A DNA stretch of 13,273 nucleotides from Aquificota bacterium (lineage in GTDB: Bacteria; Aquificota; Aquificia; Aquificales; Aquificaceae). Within the stretch, counting starts at the first letter, position 1; every line of letters starts with the position of its first letter. The stretch lies in NCBI GenBank assembly GCA_013153455.1, contig JAADEK010000067.1, forward strand, positions 1-13,273, written 5' to 3'. Shown in pieces: positions 4,947 through 12,627 of the stretch. The notes beneath the pieces are model-generated. The model was not told the origin of the DNA and searched no databases. It worked only from the letters and a program-made list of their open reading frames with translations. The translations under genes and the position numbers were made by a program.

Positions 4947-5348
4947 ATGCCAAAACTTGAGGAGATAAAGCGTATGCTAACGGAGTTGGGTCTGCGCGTT
5001 CGGGAAGAGATACCGGAGGAGAACATACTCATAGCGGAGGACGAGGAGAGGGGTATAAAGAACCTGATAGTTGACCTTGAGGACGACCTTCTGGTTCTTG
5101 AGCACCCGATAGGAAGGGTAAAGCCGGAGCGCTTCGGGTGGTTCCTCGCGAGGAACAGGGAACTGCCCTTCGGCGCCTTTGCACTTGACCCCGAAAGCGG
5201 TATCGTCCTTTGGCGCCAGACGCTAAACCCCGAGACGCTTGACGAGGAAGAGCTTGAGGCGAGCGTTTCCTCCCTTGAGCTGTTTTTTGCGGAGAGGGGC
5301 GAGGAACTGAAGGAAATACTGAAGGAGGCAAGAGATGGGACTTCTTAA
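4947..5348 (+). CDS. Small acidic protein, YbjN / DUF2170-like (tentative), first gene of the pspA block
   Basis: The 133-residue protein is soluble and acidic, with no signal peptide or membrane segment. It begins with a helix (residues 1-16), continues with short strands, and has a central Leu-Pro-Phe-Gly-Ala-Phe-Ala-Leu-Asp segment followed by Gly-Ile-Val-Leu-Trp-Arg-Gln-Thr-Leu. It closes with a long Glu/Leu-rich helix. This layout resembles the YbjN or type III secretion chaperone fold and small DUF2170 proteins. In E. coli the comparable gene yjfI also precedes a pspA-like gene (yjfJ). The match is from memory of the pattern, not a search. The pspA gene starts inside its last codons (14-base overlap), so translation is coupled. 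It may be a chaperone or partner of the PspA protein, which is an inference from context. Confidence 0.7.
   Translation: MPKLEEIKRMLTELGLRVREEIPEENILIAEDEERGIKNLIVDLEDDLLVLEHPIGRVKPERFGWFLARNRELPFGAFALDPESGIVLWRQTLNPETLDEEELEASVSSLELFFAERGEELKEILKEARDGTS
5322..5328 (+). promoter_or_regulatory. Shine-Dalgarno sequence of the pspA gene
   Basis: AAGGAGG lies six bases before the ATG at 5335, within the 3' end of the preceding gene. It is a near-perfect match to the anti-Shine-Dalgarno sequence and suggests high translation of pspA relative to its neighbours, as expected for a protein that assembles into large oligomers. Confidence 0.75.
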
Positions 5349-6009
5349 GAGGCTCGTGAGGATACTGAAGGCTCAAGCTCACGCAACCCTTGACAAGCTT
5401 GAAGACCCCATAAAGATAACCGAGGAAGCGATAAGGGAACTCCAAGAACAGATACAAAAAGCCACGGAAGCCCTCGCTCAAGTAAAGGCAAACCAGATAA
5501 GACTTGAGAGGGAAGCTCACAACGAGCTAATGAGGGCAAAAGCCCTACAAAAGCGCGCGGAGGAGATACTCCTACTCGCGAAAGAGGGGAAAATCCCCCT
5601 TGAGGAAGCGGAAAAGAAGGCTTCCGAACTCCTTGAGGAGGCAACCCTGAGGGAGCAAAACGCGAAGAAACTAAAAGAACAAGCGCAAAAACAAAAGGAA
5701 GCGGAGATAAAGCTCAGGGCAAAGATAGAGGAGCTGAAACTCCAGCTAACGAAAGCCCAAGCGGAGCTAAGGACCCTGAAGGCAAGACTTGAGACCGCAA
5801 GGGCGGTAAAGAAGGTAAACAAACAACTCTCAAAGATAGACCCGACCGAGACGCTTTCCGTCCTTGAGAGGATGAAGGAAAAGGTGGAAGAGGAAGAAGC
5901 CCTCGCACAAGCCTACGAGGAGATAACCCAACCGAGCACAGAAAGGCAAGAACCCCTCGCGAAGGAAAAACTTGAGGAACTAAAAAGGAAGCTCGGTCTT
6001 GGCACATGA
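5335..6009 (+). CDS. pspA: PspA/IM30 (ESCRT-III-like) family membrane-remodelling protein
   Basis: The 224-residue protein is almost entirely helical coiled coil, rich in Ala, Glu, Lys and Leu. It opens with an amphipathic helix (Met-Gly-Leu-Leu-Lys-Arg-Leu) and a conserved region ending Lys-Leu-Glu-Asp-Pro at about residues 19-24, the standard N-terminus of PspA/IM30 proteins. The next helices run without breaks to about residue 165, followed by a shorter region with Glu clusters and a final helix. Family members coat the inner face of the cytoplasmic membrane, form rods or rings, and protect against membrane damage. No pspF, pspB or pspC lies nearby, so the classic regulation of E. coli phage shock is not present here. 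In E. coli the second pspA-like gene, yjfJ, sits in a gene set with a DUF350 gene, much as here. The DUF4178-like gene overlaps its stop by four bases. Confidence 0.9.
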   Translation: MGLLKRLVRILKAQAHATLDKLEDPIKITEEAIRELQEQIQKATEALAQVKANQIRLEREAHNELMRAKALQKRAEEILLLAKEGKIPLEEAEKKASELLEEATLREQNAKKLKEQAQKQKEAEIKLRAKIEELKLQLTKAQAELRTLKARLETARAVKKVNKQLSKIDPTETLSVLERMKEKVEEEEALAQAYEEITQPSTERQEPLAKEKLEELKRKLGLGT

Positions 6010-6518
6010 ACCCCCTCAAGCGCATACGCTCACTCTTCAAGAAGGAAAGAAAGAAGGACGACCCCCTTGAAGCCTTAAAGGAGGGGGACATCGTTGAGCT
6101 TGACGGGGAGAGCTGGGAGGTCGTCGGAACCGCGGTATACGACTGGGGAAGCACAAAGGAAAAGGAGTGGGAACTGCGCTCACCCACAAAAAGGGGCTTC
6201 CTGAGCAAGGAAGAAGGGAAGATATACTTCTTCACCGAGATAGACCCCTCCCGAATAGAGCCCGACCCCCTCTCCCACTACAGGAGACACAAAAAACCCC
6301 CCGAGGAGATAGTTTACGAGGGAAAGCGCTACAGACTCTCCTTCGCGGGAAGGGCGCTCTACAAAAAAGGGGACGAGAGCTACCCGGTCACCGTTTGGGA
6401 GTTCAAAAACGAGGAAGGCGAGATTATAGACGTTGAGATATGGGGAGACTACGAAGCGGAGGCGTATAAAGGAAGAGAGCTACAAGAATGGGAAATCTTC
6501 TCCGTATTTCATACATAG
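6006..6518 (+). CDS. DUF4178-like protein
   Basis: The 170-residue soluble protein has a basic, possibly membrane-touching N-terminus (residues 1-17, with Lys/Arg clusters and Phe/Leu). Two related beta-rich halves follow. The first (about 24-80) starts Leu-Lys-Glu-Gly-Asp-Ile-Val-Glu-Leu and contains Trp-Glu-Val-Val-Gly-Thr-Ala and a Trp-Glu-Leu strand. The second (about 95-170) contains Tyr-Glu-Gly-Lys-Arg-Tyr, a Val-Trp-Glu-Phe strand and a Val-Glu-Ile-Trp-Gly-Asp segment. This is the pattern of DUF4178 proteins, which often lie beside DUF350 and spermidine-synthase-like genes. The function of the family is unknown to me. The ATG overlaps the pspA stop as ATGA; the next gene starts 31 bases before its end. 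It may be an adaptor between PspA and membrane parts, which is a guess from context. Confidence 0.7.
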   Translation: MNPLKRIRSLFKKERKKDDPLEALKEGDIVELDGESWEVVGTAVYDWGSTKEKEWELRSPTKRGFLSKEEGKIYFFTEIDPSRIEPDPLSHYRRHKKPPEEIVYEGKRYRLSFAGRALYKKGDESYPVTVWEFKNEEGEIIDVEIWGDYEAEAYKGRELQEWEIFSVFHT

Positions 6519-6940
6519 TCCTTTTTATCCTAATGACCGCCTGCGGCGGTGCAAAAAAGATACAAACAGACCCCCTTACCTTTTTCCTTGAGAACTACAA
6601 AAAGGGAGTATACAGATACAAAGTCCTTGAAGTAAAAAAGGAAAAGGAGGGGTGCACAGTTTTGCTCCGCGAACTGGTGAAAGGGGAAAAATACGAGCTA
6701 AAGGCAAATGAGCCCCTTTGCTCGCTCCTGCGTAAGGGAAGACTCATTGAGGTGGCGGGTGAGCGTTTCGTCCCTCCCCCGAGCTTTAGGCTCGTTGGGA
6801 ACGTCCCTCTCAGCGAGCACCTCTACATCTGGGTGATAGAAAGGGAAAGACAACCCCACGGTATCATAATCCTCCCTTGGGGCGGTGTTTGGGGAGACGG
6901 GCGCTACAGAATCCCGAGGGGCGGTTGGGGAGGTAAGTGA
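6488..6940 (+). CDS. Predicted lipoprotein of the pspA/DUF350 module
   Basis: The 150-residue product starts with a short signal peptide (hydrophobic residues 8-16) ending Met-Thr-Ala-Cys19-Gly-Gly. This is an acceptable lipobox, so Cys19 would be lipidated and the protein anchored on the outside of the cytoplasmic membrane or in the outer membrane. The mature part is basic with short strands and one further Cys pair (in Gly-Cys-Thr and Pro-Leu-Cys). Its last 30 residues are rich in Gly, Trp and Pro with an Arg/Lys end. I do not recognise a family. In related gene sets of other bacteria this position is often taken by DUF4247 proteins, also small secreted proteins with Gly-rich tails, but I cannot show homology. 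It overlaps the DUF4178-like gene by 31 bases and is followed after one base by the DUF350 gene. Confidence 0.75.
   Translation: MGNLLRISYIVLFILMTACGGAKKIQTDPLTFFLENYKKGVYRYKVLEVKKEKEGCTVLLRELVKGEKYELKANEPLCSLLRKGRLIEVAGERFVPPPSFRLVGNVPLSEHLYIWVIERERQPHGIIILPWGGVWGDGRYRIPRGGWGGK
6929..6934 (+). promoter_or_regulatory. Shine-Dalgarno sequence deciding the DUF350 gene start
   Basis: GGAGGT lies seven bases before the ATG at 6942, inside the Gly-Gly-Lys end of the lipoprotein gene. It supports 6942 over an in-frame ATG at 6885, which would add 19 hydrophilic residues before the first membrane segment and overlap the lipoprotein gene by 56 bases. Confidence 0.8.
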
Positions 6941-6941
6941 T

Positions 6942-7754
6942 ATGAGCTTTATACTTTCCGCCATTTTAGCCGGTCTTTGGCTTTGGCTCTCAAAGCTCAT
7001 CTTTGACTCCCTCTTTTACCCGCGCGTAAAGGTTGAGGAGGAGATATTCTCCCGCTCAAACAAAGCCCTCGCCCTCTCTTACGCGGGCTTCTTACTCGCA
7101 CTTTCGGTCTCATTTCTCCTCACCTTCGTCCCCCGAGACCCCTTTCGCGAAGCCCTGAACCTTTCCCTCATCACCCTGCTCCTGTTTTCGGGCGTTCTCG
7201 CCTTTGACACCATCGCCCTCAGGAAGGTTAACCTAAGGGAGGAAGTCCTTTCGGGGAACACATCCGCGGGACTCCTTCAGGGCACGCTCTTTATCTCCGT
7301 TTCCCTCATCACATCGGGCGCATACTGGGCTCGTGAGAATGTGATAACCTCCCTCGCCTACTCACTCGTCTACACAGCCCTCGGGCTTTCCCTCCTTTGG
7401 CTTTCCTCCCTCATACTTTCAAAAATCCTAAGACTTGACTTCCAAAGCGAACTTCTCAAGGACAACACCTCCGCCTCACTCGTCCTTTGTAGCATACTCC
7501 TCGGGGTTTCCCTCGTGGTCTTCGGAACCCTTTCGGGTGAATACGTGGGAAGCTTATTACTTGATATCCTCCTCACACTCCTTTACTTCGCATTTTCACA
7601 GCTCACGATGATAGGGCTTTACGTCCTCTTTGAGTTTGTCGTCTTCAGGCGCGTTCTCCTGTCCGCGGAGATTCTCTCAAACAACGCGGGAGCGTCAATA
7701 ACCCTGTCTTCCGTCTTCCTCGCGAGCGCCTTCATAACCCTGACGCTGATGTGA
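6942..7754 (+). CDS. DUF350-type polytopic membrane protein with four internal repeats
   Basis: From the ATG at 6942 the protein is 270 residues, almost all membrane segments (about eight), with short charged loops. The DUF350 signature, an acidic residue followed after a few positions by Asn and then small residues at the head of a membrane helix, occurs four times. It is at Glu34/Asn40, Glu101/Asn106, Glu170/Asn175 and Glu243/Asn248, spaced 66-73 residues apart. Ordinary DUF350 proteins such as E. coli YjfL are about half this length, so this looks like a double-length form. The conserved Glu and Asn at helix starts could line a pore or binding site, but the family has no proven activity that I know of. 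It follows the lipoprotein gene by one base, and the aminopropyltransferase gene starts on its stop codon. This places it as the membrane core of the module. Confidence 0.85.
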   Translation: MSFILSAILAGLWLWLSKLIFDSLFYPRVKVEEEIFSRSNKALALSYAGFLLALSVSFLLTFVPRDPFREALNLSLITLLLFSGVLAFDTIALRKVNLREEVLSGNTSAGLLQGTLFISVSLITSGAYWARENVITSLAYSLVYTALGLSLLWLSSLILSKILRLDFQSELLKDNTSASLVLCSILLGVSLVVFGTLSGEYVGSLLLDILLTLLYFAFSQLTMIGLYVLFEFVVFRRVLLSAEILSNNAGASITLSSVFLASAFITLTLM

Positions 7755-9232
7755 TGAGGGAAAGAACGGTAATAAACATCTCCGTATTCCTCACGGGCTT
7801 TTCCGGGATAGTCGCGGAATACGCCCTCGCGACCCTCGCGACATACCTCTTGGGAAACGCGGTTCTCCAGTGGAGCGTAACCATATCAATCTTCCTCCTC
7901 TTTATGGGGCTCGGGGCGCGGGCGAGCAAGCTCGTGCCCCACCGCGCGCTCACGGGAGCCTTCGTCCTCGCGGAGGTTTTCCTGTCTTTCCTCGTCGCGC
8001 TCTCTCCACTCATCGCCTACAGCTTCGCTCACGACCCGGGCTTGCTGAAGCCCGTCCTTTACTCCCTCTGTGCTCTCATAGGTGCGCTCATAGGGACCGA
8101 GATACCCCTCGCGATGCGCATAAACAGCGCATACGCGCGCCTTGAGGAGAACGTCTCGTCCGTTCTTGAGAAGGATTACCTCGGTGCGCTACCCGCGGGA
8201 CTCCTCTACGCATACGTCCTTTTGCCTAAGCTCGGACTCGTTCACACCACGCTTCTTGCGGGCTTGTTGAACCTCACTTCCGCGCTCCTCTTTTCGGTGT
8301 TTCTATCGCGCTCGCCCGCCCTCCGCGCACTCGTCCTTACCTCCCTCCTGCTCCTTTCGCTCTTCGGCGCTTTCGCGGAAAAGCTCGCCCTCAAGCAGGA
8401 ACAAAAACTCTACGGGGAGAAGATAATCTACTTTGAGAGAACGCCTTACCAGAAGATAGTCCTCACGCGTTACAAAGACGTTTACAACCTATACCTTGAC
8501 GGTCATCTGCAGTTTTCAACACTTGACGAAAAACGCTACCACGAGCTCATAGCCCACGCTCCCGCTTCCCTCCTAAAGGAGCACCGAAGGGCGCTCATAC
8601 TCGGGGGAGGTGACGGACTTGCCCTGAGGGAACTCCTCTCATACCCCTTTTCGGAAATCGTCCTCGTTGAGCTGGACCCCGGTATGCTCCGCTTTTCGCG
8701 CGAGCACCCTGTTATGAGGAGGATAAACAACGACAGCCTGAGGGACGAGCGCGTGAGGGCGCTCGTTGGGGACGCCTTTGAGTTCGTCTTCAAGGACGGG
8801 GGAACCTACGACCTTATCGTCGTTGACCTCGTAGACCCGAGGACGCCCTCAAGCGCGCGCGTCTACTCGCTTGAGTTCTACAGGCGGGCAAGACAGCTAC
8901 TTTCCGAGAACGGCATCCTCATCACGCAGGCGGGCGATGCCTTCTACAGGCGCGAGGTGTTTTGCTCAATAAAGAAGACCCTCTCCTCCGCGGGCTTTTT
9001 CGTCCTCCCGCTCGTTTTGAACATCCCCACGCTCGGGGAGTGGGGCTTTCTACTTGCGAGCAAACAAAAGCTTTCGCTCTCGGACGCAAAGCTGAAAGAT
9101 ACGTCCTTTCTCACTAAGGATATACTCGTCGGCGCCCTCGGTATGGGAAAGCGCGTGAGATGCGAAGATGAGGAGGTAAACACGCTCCTTAAACCCGTTT
9201 TAGTCCATTACTACTACAAGGAGTTTCCTTAA
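7754..9232 (+). CDS. Membrane-anchored spermidine-synthase-like aminopropyltransferase
   Basis: The 492-residue protein joins a membrane domain (residues 5-206, about seven segments) to a spermidine synthase fold (about 218-440). The membrane part carries the motif Tyr-Leu-Leu-Gly-Asn-Ala-Val-Leu-Gln-Trp-Ser near residue 31 and Asp-Tyr-Leu-Gly-Ala-Leu near 140, which I associate with membrane-bound SpeE relatives. The catalytic part keeps Leu-Asp249-Gly-x-x-Gln253 followed by Asp-Glu and Tyr-His-Glu, the nucleotide loop Gly-Gly-Gly-Asp-Gly at 284-288, Glu306 and Asp308, an Asp-Ala-Phe motif, and Asp358-Leu-Val-Asp361-Pro at the aminopropyl-transfer site. An active enzyme using decarboxylated S-adenosylmethionine is therefore likely; the acceptor is unknown. 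The ATG overlaps the DUF350 stop as TGATG; a GTG one codon earlier is also possible. A separate soluble spermidine synthase may exist elsewhere in the genome. Confidence 0.85.
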   Translation: MRERTVINISVFLTGFSGIVAEYALATLATYLLGNAVLQWSVTISIFLLFMGLGARASKLVPHRALTGAFVLAEVFLSFLVALSPLIAYSFAHDPGLLKPVLYSLCALIGALIGTEIPLAMRINSAYARLEENVSSVLEKDYLGALPAGLLYAYVLLPKLGLVHTTLLAGLLNLTSALLFSVFLSRSPALRALVLTSLLLLSLFGAFAEKLALKQEQKLYGEKIIYFERTPYQKIVLTRYKDVYNLYLDGHLQFSTLDEKRYHELIAHAPASLLKEHRRALILGGGDGLALRELLSYPFSEIVLVELDPGMLRFSREHPVMRRINNDSLRDERVRALVGDAFEFVFKDGGTYDLIVVDLVDPRTPSSARVYSLEFYRRARQLLSENGILITQAGDAFYRREVFCSIKKTLSSAGFFVLPLVLNIPTLGEWGFLLASKQKLSLSDAKLKDTSFLTKDILVGALGMGKRVRCEDEEVNTLLKPVLVHYYYKEFP

Positions 9233-9259: not shown

Positions 9260-9712
9260 TTGGAGCTGAAGTGGGAAAACCGTATGAACACGGGCGTCTT
9301 TTGCTTTGACGAGGAACACAGAACAATACTCAGGATGTTGAACTTCGTCAGGGAACTCCTAACAAACGGGAGGAGAAAGGAGGCGAGCTCCTTCATAGCC
9401 CAGATACTCATACCGTATCTGGTTTCACACCTGAGGCACGAGGAGGAGGTCTTTGAGACCTTCGGATACCCTGAGGGACTCCTGCACGCGCGCTCGCACA
9501 GCTCAATAGAGAAACTCTTTGAGAGTTTCATACCCGCCCTTGAGGAGGGTCAGGACAGGGTTATAAAGCACTTTCAAGCGGTCGCTATGGGTTGGTTATA
9601 CGGACACATAGAAAAAACGGACAAGCGATACGGGGATTACTTCAGGGAGCTTGACCTCCTTGATAAGGTTAACGAGATACCCCCCGTCAGAAACGAGTTT
9701 ACCGAGGTCTGA
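9260..9712 (+). CDS. Bacteriohemerythrin (di-iron oxygen-binding protein)
   Basis: The 150-residue protein matches the single-domain bacterial hemerythrin pattern. All seven expected iron ligands are visible: His20 in Phe-Asp-Glu-Glu-His, His57 and Glu61 in His-Leu-Arg-His-Glu-Glu, His76 and His80 in His-Ala-Arg-Ser-His, and His116 and Asp121 in Gly-His-Ile-Glu-Lys-Thr-Asp. Trp5 and Gly12 are at the usual N-terminal places. Such proteins reversibly bind O2 and may deliver it to oxidases or buffer it, which suits a microaerophile. A Shine-Dalgarno sequence precedes the TTG start. It follows the aminopropyltransferase gene by 27 bases and precedes mqnE by two, so it may share a transcript with either or both. 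It has no signal peptide or fused sensor domain and is cytoplasmic. Confidence 0.93.
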   Translation: MELKWENRMNTGVFCFDEEHRTILRMLNFVRELLTNGRRKEASSFIAQILIPYLVSHLRHEEEVFETFGYPEGLLHARSHSSIEKLFESFIPALEEGQDRVIKHFQAVAMGWLYGHIEKTDKRYGDYFRELDLLDKVNEIPPVRNEFTEV

Positions 9713-10851: not shown

Positions 10852-11425
10852 CCTTTTCTATCTCTTCCCTCTTTACCCTTCCCTCCCTTAGGATACGAAC
10901 TCCCTCCCTCAGGTCAACAATCGTTGAGGGCTCACCCGTTATAATTCCCGCATCAACGTATAGGTCAACGAGTGAACCGAAATAAGAGAGGGCTTCCTCA
11001 ACGCTTTTTGCGGGGGGTTTTCCCTCCGGGTTTGTGCTCGGTGCGACGAGGGGCTTCCCGAATGCGGAAATCAAGTCCCTCACAAATCCCCTCCTCGGGA
11101 CCCTTACCGCTATGCTTTCCCTGTTTACGTGTGAGAACCTTTCGCACTCCTTCTTAAGAACGAGCGTAACTCCTTCAAGTTTTATAAGCTTTTCTCCTTC
11201 TTTGGGCATTCGGAGGCACATCTCCCTCACCCAACCCTCGTGGGGTATGAGGACGAGGAAGGGCTTTCCCGAAGGGCGACGAATCTCGTAAAGCTTCCTG
11301 ACCGCTTCGGGATTTGTAGCATCCGCGAGCATACCGTAGAGCGTGTCCGTGGGGGCGACTACGATACCTCCCCTCTCAAGAACCCTAACCGCCTCACCGA
11401 GAGCCTCTTTATACGGGATTATCAT
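10829..11425 (-). CDS. tsaC: L-threonylcarbamoyladenylate synthase (TsaC/YrdC type)
   Basis: The 198-residue cytoplasmic enzyme makes threonylcarbamoyl-AMP from threonine, bicarbonate and ATP, the first step of the universal t6A modification at position 37 of tRNAs reading ANN codons. It has the YrdC fold signatures: Pro25-Thr-Asp-Thr-Leu-Tyr-Gly31, then [15 protein letters not shown], and Ser-Thr-Ile-Val-Asp. The usual Ser-Ala-Asn-x-Ser-Gly motif reads Ser-Thr-Asn-Pro-Glu-Gly here, a modest change. The chain ends after the YrdC domain, so the extra Sua5 C-terminal domain is absent. It starts on the stop of the NlpD-like gene (ATGA overlap) and ends inside the 3' end of mqnE. Two tRNA-related genes (this and the Trbp111 gene) lie in this window but on different transcripts. 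Confidence 0.92.
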
Positions 11426-12627
11426 CTCTTAACCGATATATGGTTAAGGGGGTTTAGGAGCGCGCCGTTTGAGTCTCTTAGCTCAAAGTGAAGGGCGCAC
11501 CTTCCCTCGTCGGGCTTTGTCCCGACGTATCCAATCACATCACCCTTTTTTACCCTCTGTCCCAGCCTTACGGTGTTCTTTGAGTTGTAGGCGTAAACGC
11601 TTATGTAATTGTCGTGCCTTACGATTACCATATTTCCGAAGGCGGTAAGGTCATCACCGCTGTATATCACCTTCCCGCTGTCAACGACCCTGACGGGCTT
11701 TCCGCACTCGGTGTATATGAGTATTCCCCTTTTGTTCTTTACAACCTTCCCGTTGACGGGAAGGTTCTTTACGGAAATCTTCGGAACCTTCGGTTTCTTT
11801 TCAACGTATACGTATTTGTAAACGGGTATCTTTAGAACCTGACCCACGTATATGCGGTTTGATTTTAGTCCGTTCACGCGCTTTATGGTTCTTACGCTCG
11901 TTCCGAACTTTTTGGCTATCTTTATCAGGCTGTCCCCTTTTTTGACCCTGTATCTTACGTATACGCGTTTCCTTACCTTTTCGTAAACGACGCGCTCGCG
12001 CGTTCTTACGTTTTCCTCCTTTTTCCTTCTCACCACTTCCTTTACGGGAATCTTCAGCTTTTGCCCTACCCTTATCCTGCTGGACTTTAAATTGTTTACT
12101 CGTTTTATCTCCTTTACGCTCGTTCCGAATTTTTTAGCTATCTTGCTGAGTGTATCACCGCGCTTGACGCGGTAAGTGATGTATTTAGTTCTCGTTGTGG
12201 TTTTTGTTCTTTTCGCGGTTTTGTAGCTCTTTGAGCGGACGCTCTTTACGGGAATCTTTAGTTTCTGACCGACCCTTATGCGGTTTGAGCGCAGGTTGTT
12301 CGCCCTCTTTATGGCGCTTACGCTCGTTCCGAAGCGCTTTGCTATCGTGCTAAGGGTGTCTCCTTTTTTAACCTTGTAAAGGATGTAATTGCTTGATGTT
12401 TTCCTCCTTGAGCGGGCGACGCAAATCTTCTCACCCGCCCTGAGGTATTTCCTTTTCTTGAGGTGAGGGTTTAGCTCGTAGAGTTCTTTCAGGCTGAGTT
12501 TATACTTTTTTGCTATCTCCCAGAGCGTCTCCCCCTTTTTTACGCGGTGGTATACACCGCACTGGGCTCCCCACGATAGGCTCAGGATACTAAATATACT
12601 TAATATCAAAACCGTAAAGGGGCTCAT
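11422..12627 (-). CDS. NlpD-like periplasmic protein with four LysM domains and a degenerate LytM (M23) domain
   Basis: The 401-residue protein has a signal peptide (residues 1-21) with the mature chain starting near Gln22. Four LysM peptidoglycan-binding domains follow at about 26-70, 82-127, 150-195 and 224-269, joined by Lys/Arg/Thr-rich linkers. A C-terminal LytM/M23 domain spans about 286-397. Two zinc-ligand positions of active M23 enzymes are lost: the His-x3-Asp motif reads Lys-Arg-Gly-Ile-Leu (about 299-303), and the final His-x-His reads Ala378-Leu-His380. In E. coli such degenerate domains (NlpD, EnvC) do not cut peptidoglycan but activate cell-division amidases, so a regulatory role is inferred here. 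Cys23/Cys69 bracket the first LysM and Cys308/Cys377 lie in the LytM domain; both could be disulfides. The start overlaps acyP by 38 bases and is backed by a good Shine-Dalgarno sequence. The tsaC gene follows by ATGA overlap. Confidence 0.9.
11821..12384 (-). repeat. Three closely similar LysM-coding repeats
   Basis: LysM domains 2, 3 and 4 (coded at 12247-12384, 12043-12180 and 11821-11958) share the peptide pattern Val-Lys-x-Gly-Asp-(Thr/Ser)-Leu ... Phe-Gly-Thr-Ser-Val ... Val-Gly-Gln-x-Leu-Lys-Ile-Pro-Val. They also share DNA stretches such as ACGCTCGTTCCGAA (plus strand). LysM 1 (12418-12552) is clearly more diverged. This points to duplication of one ancestral unit within the lineage. 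Confidence 0.85.

Follow-up and report, generated by a model that had tools for sequence, protein, structure and literature searches.

A C-terminal lysine accompanies membrane-bound aminopropyltransferases in a PspA-linked operon of Aquifex and other bacteria, and may be their acceptor

In this work, we have used sequence comparisons to examine a block of six genes, all on the + strand, at positions 4947..9232 of a stretch of 13,273 nucleotides (contig JAADEK010000067.1 of an Aquificota bacterium), which we call the window. The block codes for a CesT/Tir-like chaperone-fold protein, a PspA/IM30 protein (PspA), a DUF4178 protein, a lipoprotein, a DUF350 membrane protein and a membrane-bound aminopropyltransferase (APT). 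Our results show that proteins ending in lysine accompany this enzyme in many phyla: with all sets taken together, a neighbour with a C-terminal lysine is present in 96 of the 97 APT loci that have module genes (DUF350 or DUF4178) in view, and on sequence grounds the link between the terminal lysine and the APT is strong. We propose that the block is an envelope tail-modification system coupled to the PspA coat, in which the APT would aminopropylate the C-terminal lysine of the lipoprotein tail; we put the probability of this reading at about 0.62. The original prediction that a polyamine-related modification takes place at the membrane in connection with PspA is thereby supported and made sharper, the likely acceptor being the C-terminal lysine of the lipoprotein.

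Results

A terminal lysine beside the aminopropyltransferase

The window lipoprotein belongs to no Pfam family, a protein search with it returned itself alone among 16 candidates, and the matches of an iterated profile built for it stayed inside the genus. Because the search retrieved only the lipoprotein itself, carriers of comparable tails were sought by their position beside the APT. The discovery loci were the best 80 matches of an APT profile scan; with the window and the loci of its genus added, and the duplicate L055 removed, they give 89 APT places. In this discovery set, module genes were taken as in view when DUF350 or DUF4178 lay on the same strand within 4.5 kb upstream of the APT. 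An open reading frame (ORF) ending in GK or HK was found beside the APT in 67 of the 68 places with such an upstream gene, and the sole miss (L064) lies on a contig that begins 246 bases upstream of the APT. When all dipeptide endings are compared over these 68 places, GK is found in 63 and the next, PR, in 13, with a mean of 1.6 over the 400 dipeptides; after a filter for transmembrane (TM) segments in the first 110 residues, GK stands at 52 and the next, VH, at 6. In a control interval 5-8.45 kb upstream, GK or HK endings occurred in 2 of 41 cases, and in 2 of 55 when the set interval beside the APT was read on the opposite strand. The distal signal- or TM-like ORFs of the same loci end in GK once in 198 and in K 25 times in 198. 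In the genus of the window, the lipoprotein is kept in all six module-bearing genomes and ends in GK in 6/6.

APT places without upstream DUF350 or DUF4178, several of which are cut contigs, had no GK or HK ending in the interval (0/21). One of these loci, L117, has a GGGK lipoprotein just downstream of the APT, and a search of 12 genomes whose APT lacks a nearby DUF350 gene found a GK protein beside DUF350 elsewhere in three (L066, L072, L091).

The association was then followed in three holdout phyla. The Bacillota (149 genomes) gave four new full-length APT loci, with a GK lipoprotein or TM protein in 4/4. In the Actinomycetota (198 genomes) the loci with DUF350 end in K in 7/7, four with GK and three with TK (L219, L220, L222), the latter being missed by the GK/HK rule and seen on inspection; APT-like places without DUF350 had a GK or HK neighbour in 0/8, one of them (L229) being a short stretch. 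For the Pseudomonadota (299 genomes, 21 of 31 matches), the first rule accepted any K-ending TM-like ORF on the same strand, from -150 to 3300 bases upstream, and was satisfied in 14 of 20 loci. A module gene was in view in 13 of these, where the K follows G or H in 11 and I in two (L303 and L304). Five more loci (L290, L292, L296, L302, and L298 as L306) were added after strand and distance were loosened or the locus was fetched again, so that a K-ending TM-like protein is present in 18/18 loci with DUF350 or DUF4178 in view. Locus L288 has such a protein on a short contig without either module gene, and in L293 and L307 there was no tail and no module gene in view. Over all sets, the ending is GK or HK in 91 of the 97 loci, and 86 of the 97 were found under each sample's first rule.

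The tails are borne by unlike proteins. The 67 discovery carriers fall into 11 BLAST groups, some of which could be distant homologues; there were originally 12, one of which proved to be a chance ORF of locus L085. That ORF (L085:1785-2615), channel-like and lying beside the module upstream of DUF4178, ends in IHK by chance or otherwise and is left out of the carrier count. The largest, with 34 members, consists for the most part of lipoproteins. The others include the Aquifex lipoprotein, lipoproteins of the DUF4247 family (two of which were tested), several groups of short peptides (about 47-87 residues), and DUF4178 proteins with the tail on a C-terminal extension. A hydrophobic segment was detected in 60 of the 67 carriers; of the other seven, contig ends truncate two, and the remaining five are peptides of 61-85 residues that fall under the threshold. 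What the carriers share is an anchor in most of them, a Gly/Ser/Arg-rich tail and the final lysine. The last two tail positions were the selection criterion (G in 63 or H in 5, then K, over 68 ORFs with the chance ORF included), and at positions -3 to -20 the commonest residue reaches at most 38 of 68. When the carriers are grouped by hand into five classes, the class changes at least seven times on a FastTree tree of 127 APTs. We also observed, between DUF350 and a short tail peptide, a protein about 200 residues long that has a TYGPIVI-like stretch close to its start (L302:5151-5789, L105:8141-8746); in L123 (2731-3471) a similar stretch seems to be joined to the tail.

Loci with a ligase, and operons without the APT

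How do the tails end when another polyamine-related enzyme is present, or when the APT is missing? When 200 Pseudomonadota genomes were searched for DUF1190, 26 matches were found in 23 of them, and none ends in K. The 21 DUF1190 loci with an adjacent YgiC/YjfC-like ligase end in GG (16), GS (3) or SS (2), and E. coli YjfM and YgiB end in GG. Among the 123 APT loci scanned, a set apart from the window, a YgiC/YjfC-like ORF occurs in only two, L122 and L128, where the TM protein beside the ligase ends in RSFGG and RSYGG, respectively. Both loci fall inside the lysine-tailed part of the APT tree; in them the ligase and the GG-ending TM protein are divergent to the APT (L122:7245-8985 and L128:7060-8824, both on the - strand). 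They may be mixed systems, with the APT making polyamine for the ligase. Overall, Lys-ending tails number 0/25 in the ligase systems.

The second contrast comes from the DUF4247 lipoproteins. This family is present in exactly the seven sampled Actinomycetota genomes with a DUF350-linked APT and in seven Bacillota genomes, five of which have a full-length APT, and its members end in K in 12/12 genomes with a full-length APT (nine GK, three TK). The two Bacillota genomes G217 and G256 have PspA, DUF350, DUF4178 and DUF4247 in a row (L323:4964-7505 and L324:4792-7742, loci also numbered L309 and L310) and no APT match at E up to 1e-30; no APT, SpeD or ligase gene was found within 11 kb. Their DUF4247 proteins end in GGGRIMRRR and GKIRKRGRR, so that the lysine is gone together with the enzyme. 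Here a different cationic end, or a different enzyme, may be in use.

The membrane-bound enzyme

The APT matches the Pfam family Spermine_synth (E 2.7e-42) and passes the NCBIfam profile PRK03612 for membrane-type polyamine aminopropyltransferases (507.8 bits, cut-off 472); it fails the SpeE equivalog profile TIGR00417 (139.9 bits vs a cut-off of 249.55). An N-terminal domain of six or seven TM segments (about residues 4-210) is followed by a domain with the spermidine-synthase fold (about residues 212-474). In 76 aligned APTs, D259, Y263, the GGGDG motif at 285-289, D309, D341, D359 and D362 are invariant (G286 nearly so), and the active-site Asp and Tyr positions align with solved spermidine synthases, in which these positions have catalytic roles. 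The fold of the catalytic domain, to which the structure-neighbour (VIA) list is confined, is common to soluble SpeE homologues.

Hydropathy over the 76 sequences gives seven TM segments with positive loops on the side of the N-terminus, and seven helices would place the catalytic domain outside. In two AlphaFold2 (AF2) models the fifth and sixth segments form a single helical stretch of 54-58 residues, whereas mutual information tends to favour a hairpin (pairs 157-168, 149-170 and 64-187), with a noisy signal that includes further pairs for which a hairpin does not account. Three glutamates in the membrane segments (E23, E75, E117) are invariant.

SpeD is present elsewhere in the window genome, and SpeD-like ORFs occur in 24 of 86 discovery loci. 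The window genome has a separate SpeE-like gene and, since a stand-alone SpeE-like gene is present in 6/6 APT-bearing genomes of the genus, the membrane APT is probably not needed for spermidine. According to PMC12803844, bacterial membrane-APT fusions have been shown to play no part in making spermidine or spermine.

The gene block in the window

The features of the block, all on the + strand, are as follows.

4947..5348, +, CesT/Tir-like chaperone-fold protein, 133 aa (Pfam CesT_Tir_1, E 2.7e-25)
5335..6009, +, PspA/IM30 protein, 224 aa (Pfam PF04012, PspA_IM30, E 2.1e-43)
6006..6518, +, DUF4178 protein, 170 aa (Pfam PF13785, E 2.8e-23, 83 bits)
6488..6940, +, lipoprotein, 150 aa, with a lipobox-like LMTAC and Cys19; proposed tail carrier (from sequence)
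6920..6937, +, C-terminal tail GGWGGK of the lipoprotein; terminal Lys codon AAG at 6935-6937, stop at 6938-6940
6942..7754, +, DUF350 membrane protein (two stretches of the domain), 270 aa (Pfam PF03994, E 1.5e-28)
7751..9232, +, membrane-bound APT, 493 aa; GTG start at 7751, ATG at 7754
8525..8836, +, APT active-site segment, D259 to D362 (alignment of 76 sequences and solved spermidine synthases)

The tight coupling of the six genes that had been claimed for the block is borne out by the ORF coordinates: consecutive genes overlap by 14, 4, 31 and 4 bases, with a single-base gap at 6941. These figures rest on ATG 6942 as the start of the DUF350 gene, the longest ORF of which begins at GTG 6885. 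The first gene had been labelled YbjN/DUF2170-like; its Pfam match is CesT_Tir_1, with YbjN at just 7.8e-5 and no DUF2170 match listed, and the labels of the other five genes need no correction. The window genome (G000, 83% complete) has one PspA match only, and the window PspA scores below the equivalog cut-off of the classical Psp response (TIGR02977, 39.4 vs 242.95 bits).

Scans for promoters (3 vs 1.6 in shuffled sequence) and terminators (11 vs 6.9) did not rise far above the shuffle level. Downstream of the block lies a hemerythrin-like gene (window 9260-9712), which tblastn also places downstream in L034 and L036 and, in part, in L033 and L035, and which it does not find near the block in G001 (L032). 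Elsewhere in the window are a gene for an outer-membrane-like protein with a thrombospondin-type-3-like start (448-1224, weak Pfam match), followed by a response-regulator/kinase-like pair (1227-2943, judged by eye), and on the - strand a gene for a LysM-repeat protein with a peptidase-like C-terminus (11422-12627, also judged by eye).

Distribution of the block

A full-length APT was found in 6 of 41 genomes searched, all six within the seven genomes of the window's genus, which is Aquifex by its hit names (Aquifex aeolicus, Aquifex pyrophilus). Of the other 35, 34 have a shorter SpeE-like match only, and G035 has no match. The five remaining APT-bearing genomes of the genus each have the six genes in the same order (5/5). 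The comparison with close relatives, which could have refuted the original prediction, thus does not do so: the block stays together, order kept, in all six APT-bearing genomes of the genus. In G001 the block is complete, but four tested flanking genes are absent from the 14 kb fetched, so that the block is conserved as a unit independently of the genes around it. In the seventh genome of the genus, G005 (89% complete), no match to DUF4178 or PspA and no full-length APT was found.

DUF4178 is found in 8 of 136 Aquificota genomes, six of them in the genus and the other two by weak matches, around which short stretches contained no tail-like ORF. Within Aquificota the module looks, from these searches, nearly confined to the Aquifex genus, which suggests that it was acquired as a unit. 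Two plasmid searches gave 12 records with APT-like matches, one with PspA, and no sign that the whole module travels on plasmids. A different PspA is present in another genus of the family (G015:C1:289451-290101, G022:C1:288246-288893), with no DUF4178 match listed there. A role at high temperature had also been suggested; because the APT loci include gut and marine genomes (Goat_Cecum, Sheep_Ileum, Aquimarina), heat is unlikely to be the common factor.

Discussion

We propose the following scheme. SpeD would produce decarboxylated S-adenosylmethionine (SAM), the aminopropyl donor, and the acceptor used by the APT would be, in place of putrescine, a small anchored protein rich in Gly, Ser and Arg, whose C-terminal lysine would receive the aminopropyl group on its side-chain amine. 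This would yield an N6-(3-aminopropyl)lysine at the C-terminus and so put one more positive charge on the end of a flexible tail in the envelope. Anionic lipids or polymers of the surface could be bound by this polyamine-like tip at the sites of PspA assembly on the inner face, and the CesT/Tir-like protein, PspA, DUF4178 and DUF350 may assemble or place the system at the stressed membrane. That lysine is the acceptor, what the product does and how DUF350 and DUF4178 contribute are what we infer from this pattern of genes and tail ends. In such a scheme the tail end would be the acceptor in both kinds of system, offering a lysine amine to the APT and a Gly/Ser carboxylate to the spermidine ligase; this is the simplest reading because it accounts for the identity of the enzyme, the terminal residue and both contrasts.

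Several observations weigh against this reading. The tail is predicted to lie outside, whereas decarboxylated SAM is cytosolic; the tail may be modified before export, or the APT may face out, and if the enzyme has seven TM helices the transfer would take place outside the cytoplasm and the membrane domain, with E23, E75 and E117, would carry decarboxylated SAM across. Membrane anchoring is supported for most but not all of the carriers, since 7 of the 67 have no clear hydrophobic segment. The residue before the terminal lysine varies (G, H, T, I), and 10 of the 29 K tails of the holdout loci with module genes failed the first G/H rule at the set place: three end in TK, two in IK, and the other five were found only downstream, at a greater distance, in an overlapping position or on the opposite strand. 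APT genes without a nearby DUF350 gene mostly lack a lysine-tailed neighbour. The contrast with operons that lack the APT comes from two genomes (p 0.011), and the Fisher values describe the contrast only, because the loci are related and the counts are not independent trials.

The proposal can be widened. As a widespread modification, membrane-bound APTs would cap exported tails at a C-terminal lysine, perhaps with more than one aminopropyl unit, and YgiC/YjfC ligases would cap the glycine of sister tails with spermidine, so that enzymes of two unrelated types would have arrived at the same outcome, polyamine-tipped envelope tails beneath a coat of PspA. We consider the odds on this wider form to be even.

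The best of the alternatives is that the lysine tail serves for docking or regulation and is no substrate: it would enter the APT pocket or bind DUF350 and so control the enzyme, which itself would make a small polyamine or modify another target. It would explain the co-variation of the terminal lysine with the APT equally well, and the diversity of the carriers suits a short linear binding motif as much as an acceptor. However, it gives no account of the switch to Gly/Ser in the ligase systems, which is the type of residue expected for a carboxylate-directed ligase, and the making of a small polyamine sits badly with the statement in PMC12803844 on membrane APTs cited above. We regard it as rather unlikely.

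Less probable still is an ordinary Psp-type stress operon in which the APT adjusts the polyamine level, PspA senses it, one of the options of Ravi et al., and the tail end is incidental. The PspA-CesT dyad does co-occur with polyamine genes in the account of PMC11237479, and the soluble SpeE homologues have the same fold as the APT. Against it stand the terminal lysine itself, near universal with the APT and absent with a ligase or without the APT, and the stand-alone SpeE-like gene of all six APT-bearing Aquifex genomes. That the lysine is instead recognised by DUF350, DUF4178 or an export or processing system, and tracks the APT because these genes travel together, would fit carriers that mostly adjoin DUF350 or DUF4178 and are in some cases DUF4178 fusions, but we find it very improbable, as L309/L310 have DUF350, DUF4178 and PspA without APT or lysine, and the yjf ligase operon of E. 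coli retains DUF350 (yjfL), yet has no lysine.

What would aminopropylation of the terminal lysine mean? For the widespread membrane-bound spermidine-synthase-like enzymes, the terminal lysine supplies a specific candidate acceptor that can be tested at each locus, with candidates that span many phyla and include cultivable organisms. If true, the proposal would add a hypusine-like modification to bacterial envelope biology, explain why PspA, DUF350 and polyamine enzymes meet recurrently, and suggest the C-terminal Gly-Gly of YgiB and YjfM as substrates of the E. coli ligases.

Comparison with known systems

In hypusination, an aminobutyl group is added to a lysine side chain of eIF5A. By analogy, the hypusine or deoxyhypusine of eIF5A and the product proposed for the window would both carry an aminoalkyl group on a lysine side chain; the hypusine system differs in donor, enzyme fold and target, and in that its lysine is internal rather than C-terminal, and the likeness is not a family relation. 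SpeE, in turn, differs from the window APT, which has an N-terminal membrane domain and does not reach the cut-off of the SpeE equivalog profile.

The comparison with E. coli yjfI-yjfL and yjfC made in the original prediction was right. Like the window, yjfIJKLMC and ygiBC place an exported protein with a Gly/Ser-rich tail beside a polyamine-related enzyme, and the yjf operon has PspA-like and DUF350 (yjfL) genes too. The enzyme there, YjfC or YgiC, is an ATP-grasp peptide-spermidine ligase, in contrast to the aminopropyltransferase of the window. The yjf operon has DUF2170 and DUF2491 where the window has CesT_Tir_1 and DUF4178, and ygiBC has no DUF350 neighbour in the 10 kb inspected. Conversely, no ligase family is represented among the six block genes, and the window tail ends in GGK, not in Gly/Ser. 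A further DUF2170 protein with a CesT/Tir-like fold, BacA, adjoins a PspA in the description given in PMC10948618.

The closest known system is the second group of CesT/Tir-PspA operons of Ravi et al. 2024 (PMC11237479), where the same operon of six to seven genes is set out, with CesT/Tir-PspA, a 7TM-spermidine synthase, YjfL/DUF350, a lipoprotein with a Ctha_1186 domain and DUF4178; the function suggested there is the monitoring of polyamines or of aminopropylation on other substrates. The claim that a PspA half and an aminopropyltransferase half are brought together for the first time in this block therefore falls, the operon being already in that account. The CesT/Tir-PspA dyad is present in the window, its two genes overlapping by 14 bases, as are the DUF350 (two stretches) and DUF4178 proteins and a spermidine-synthase domain fused to an N-terminal TM domain, of six or seven segments here. 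The window lipoprotein, which has a lipobox-like site and no Pfam family, is a candidate counterpart of the lipoprotein with the Ctha_1186 domain. The words 'lysine' and 'glycine' do not occur in the main text of PMC11237479, and a C-terminal lysine or aminopropyl-lysine in such a setting was not found in print among the open-licence PMC papers listed by the searches. The gene set is thus known and the Aquifex block is another member of it; what is added here is how the tail ends, how closely this ending is tied to the enzyme, and the contrast with the ligase systems.

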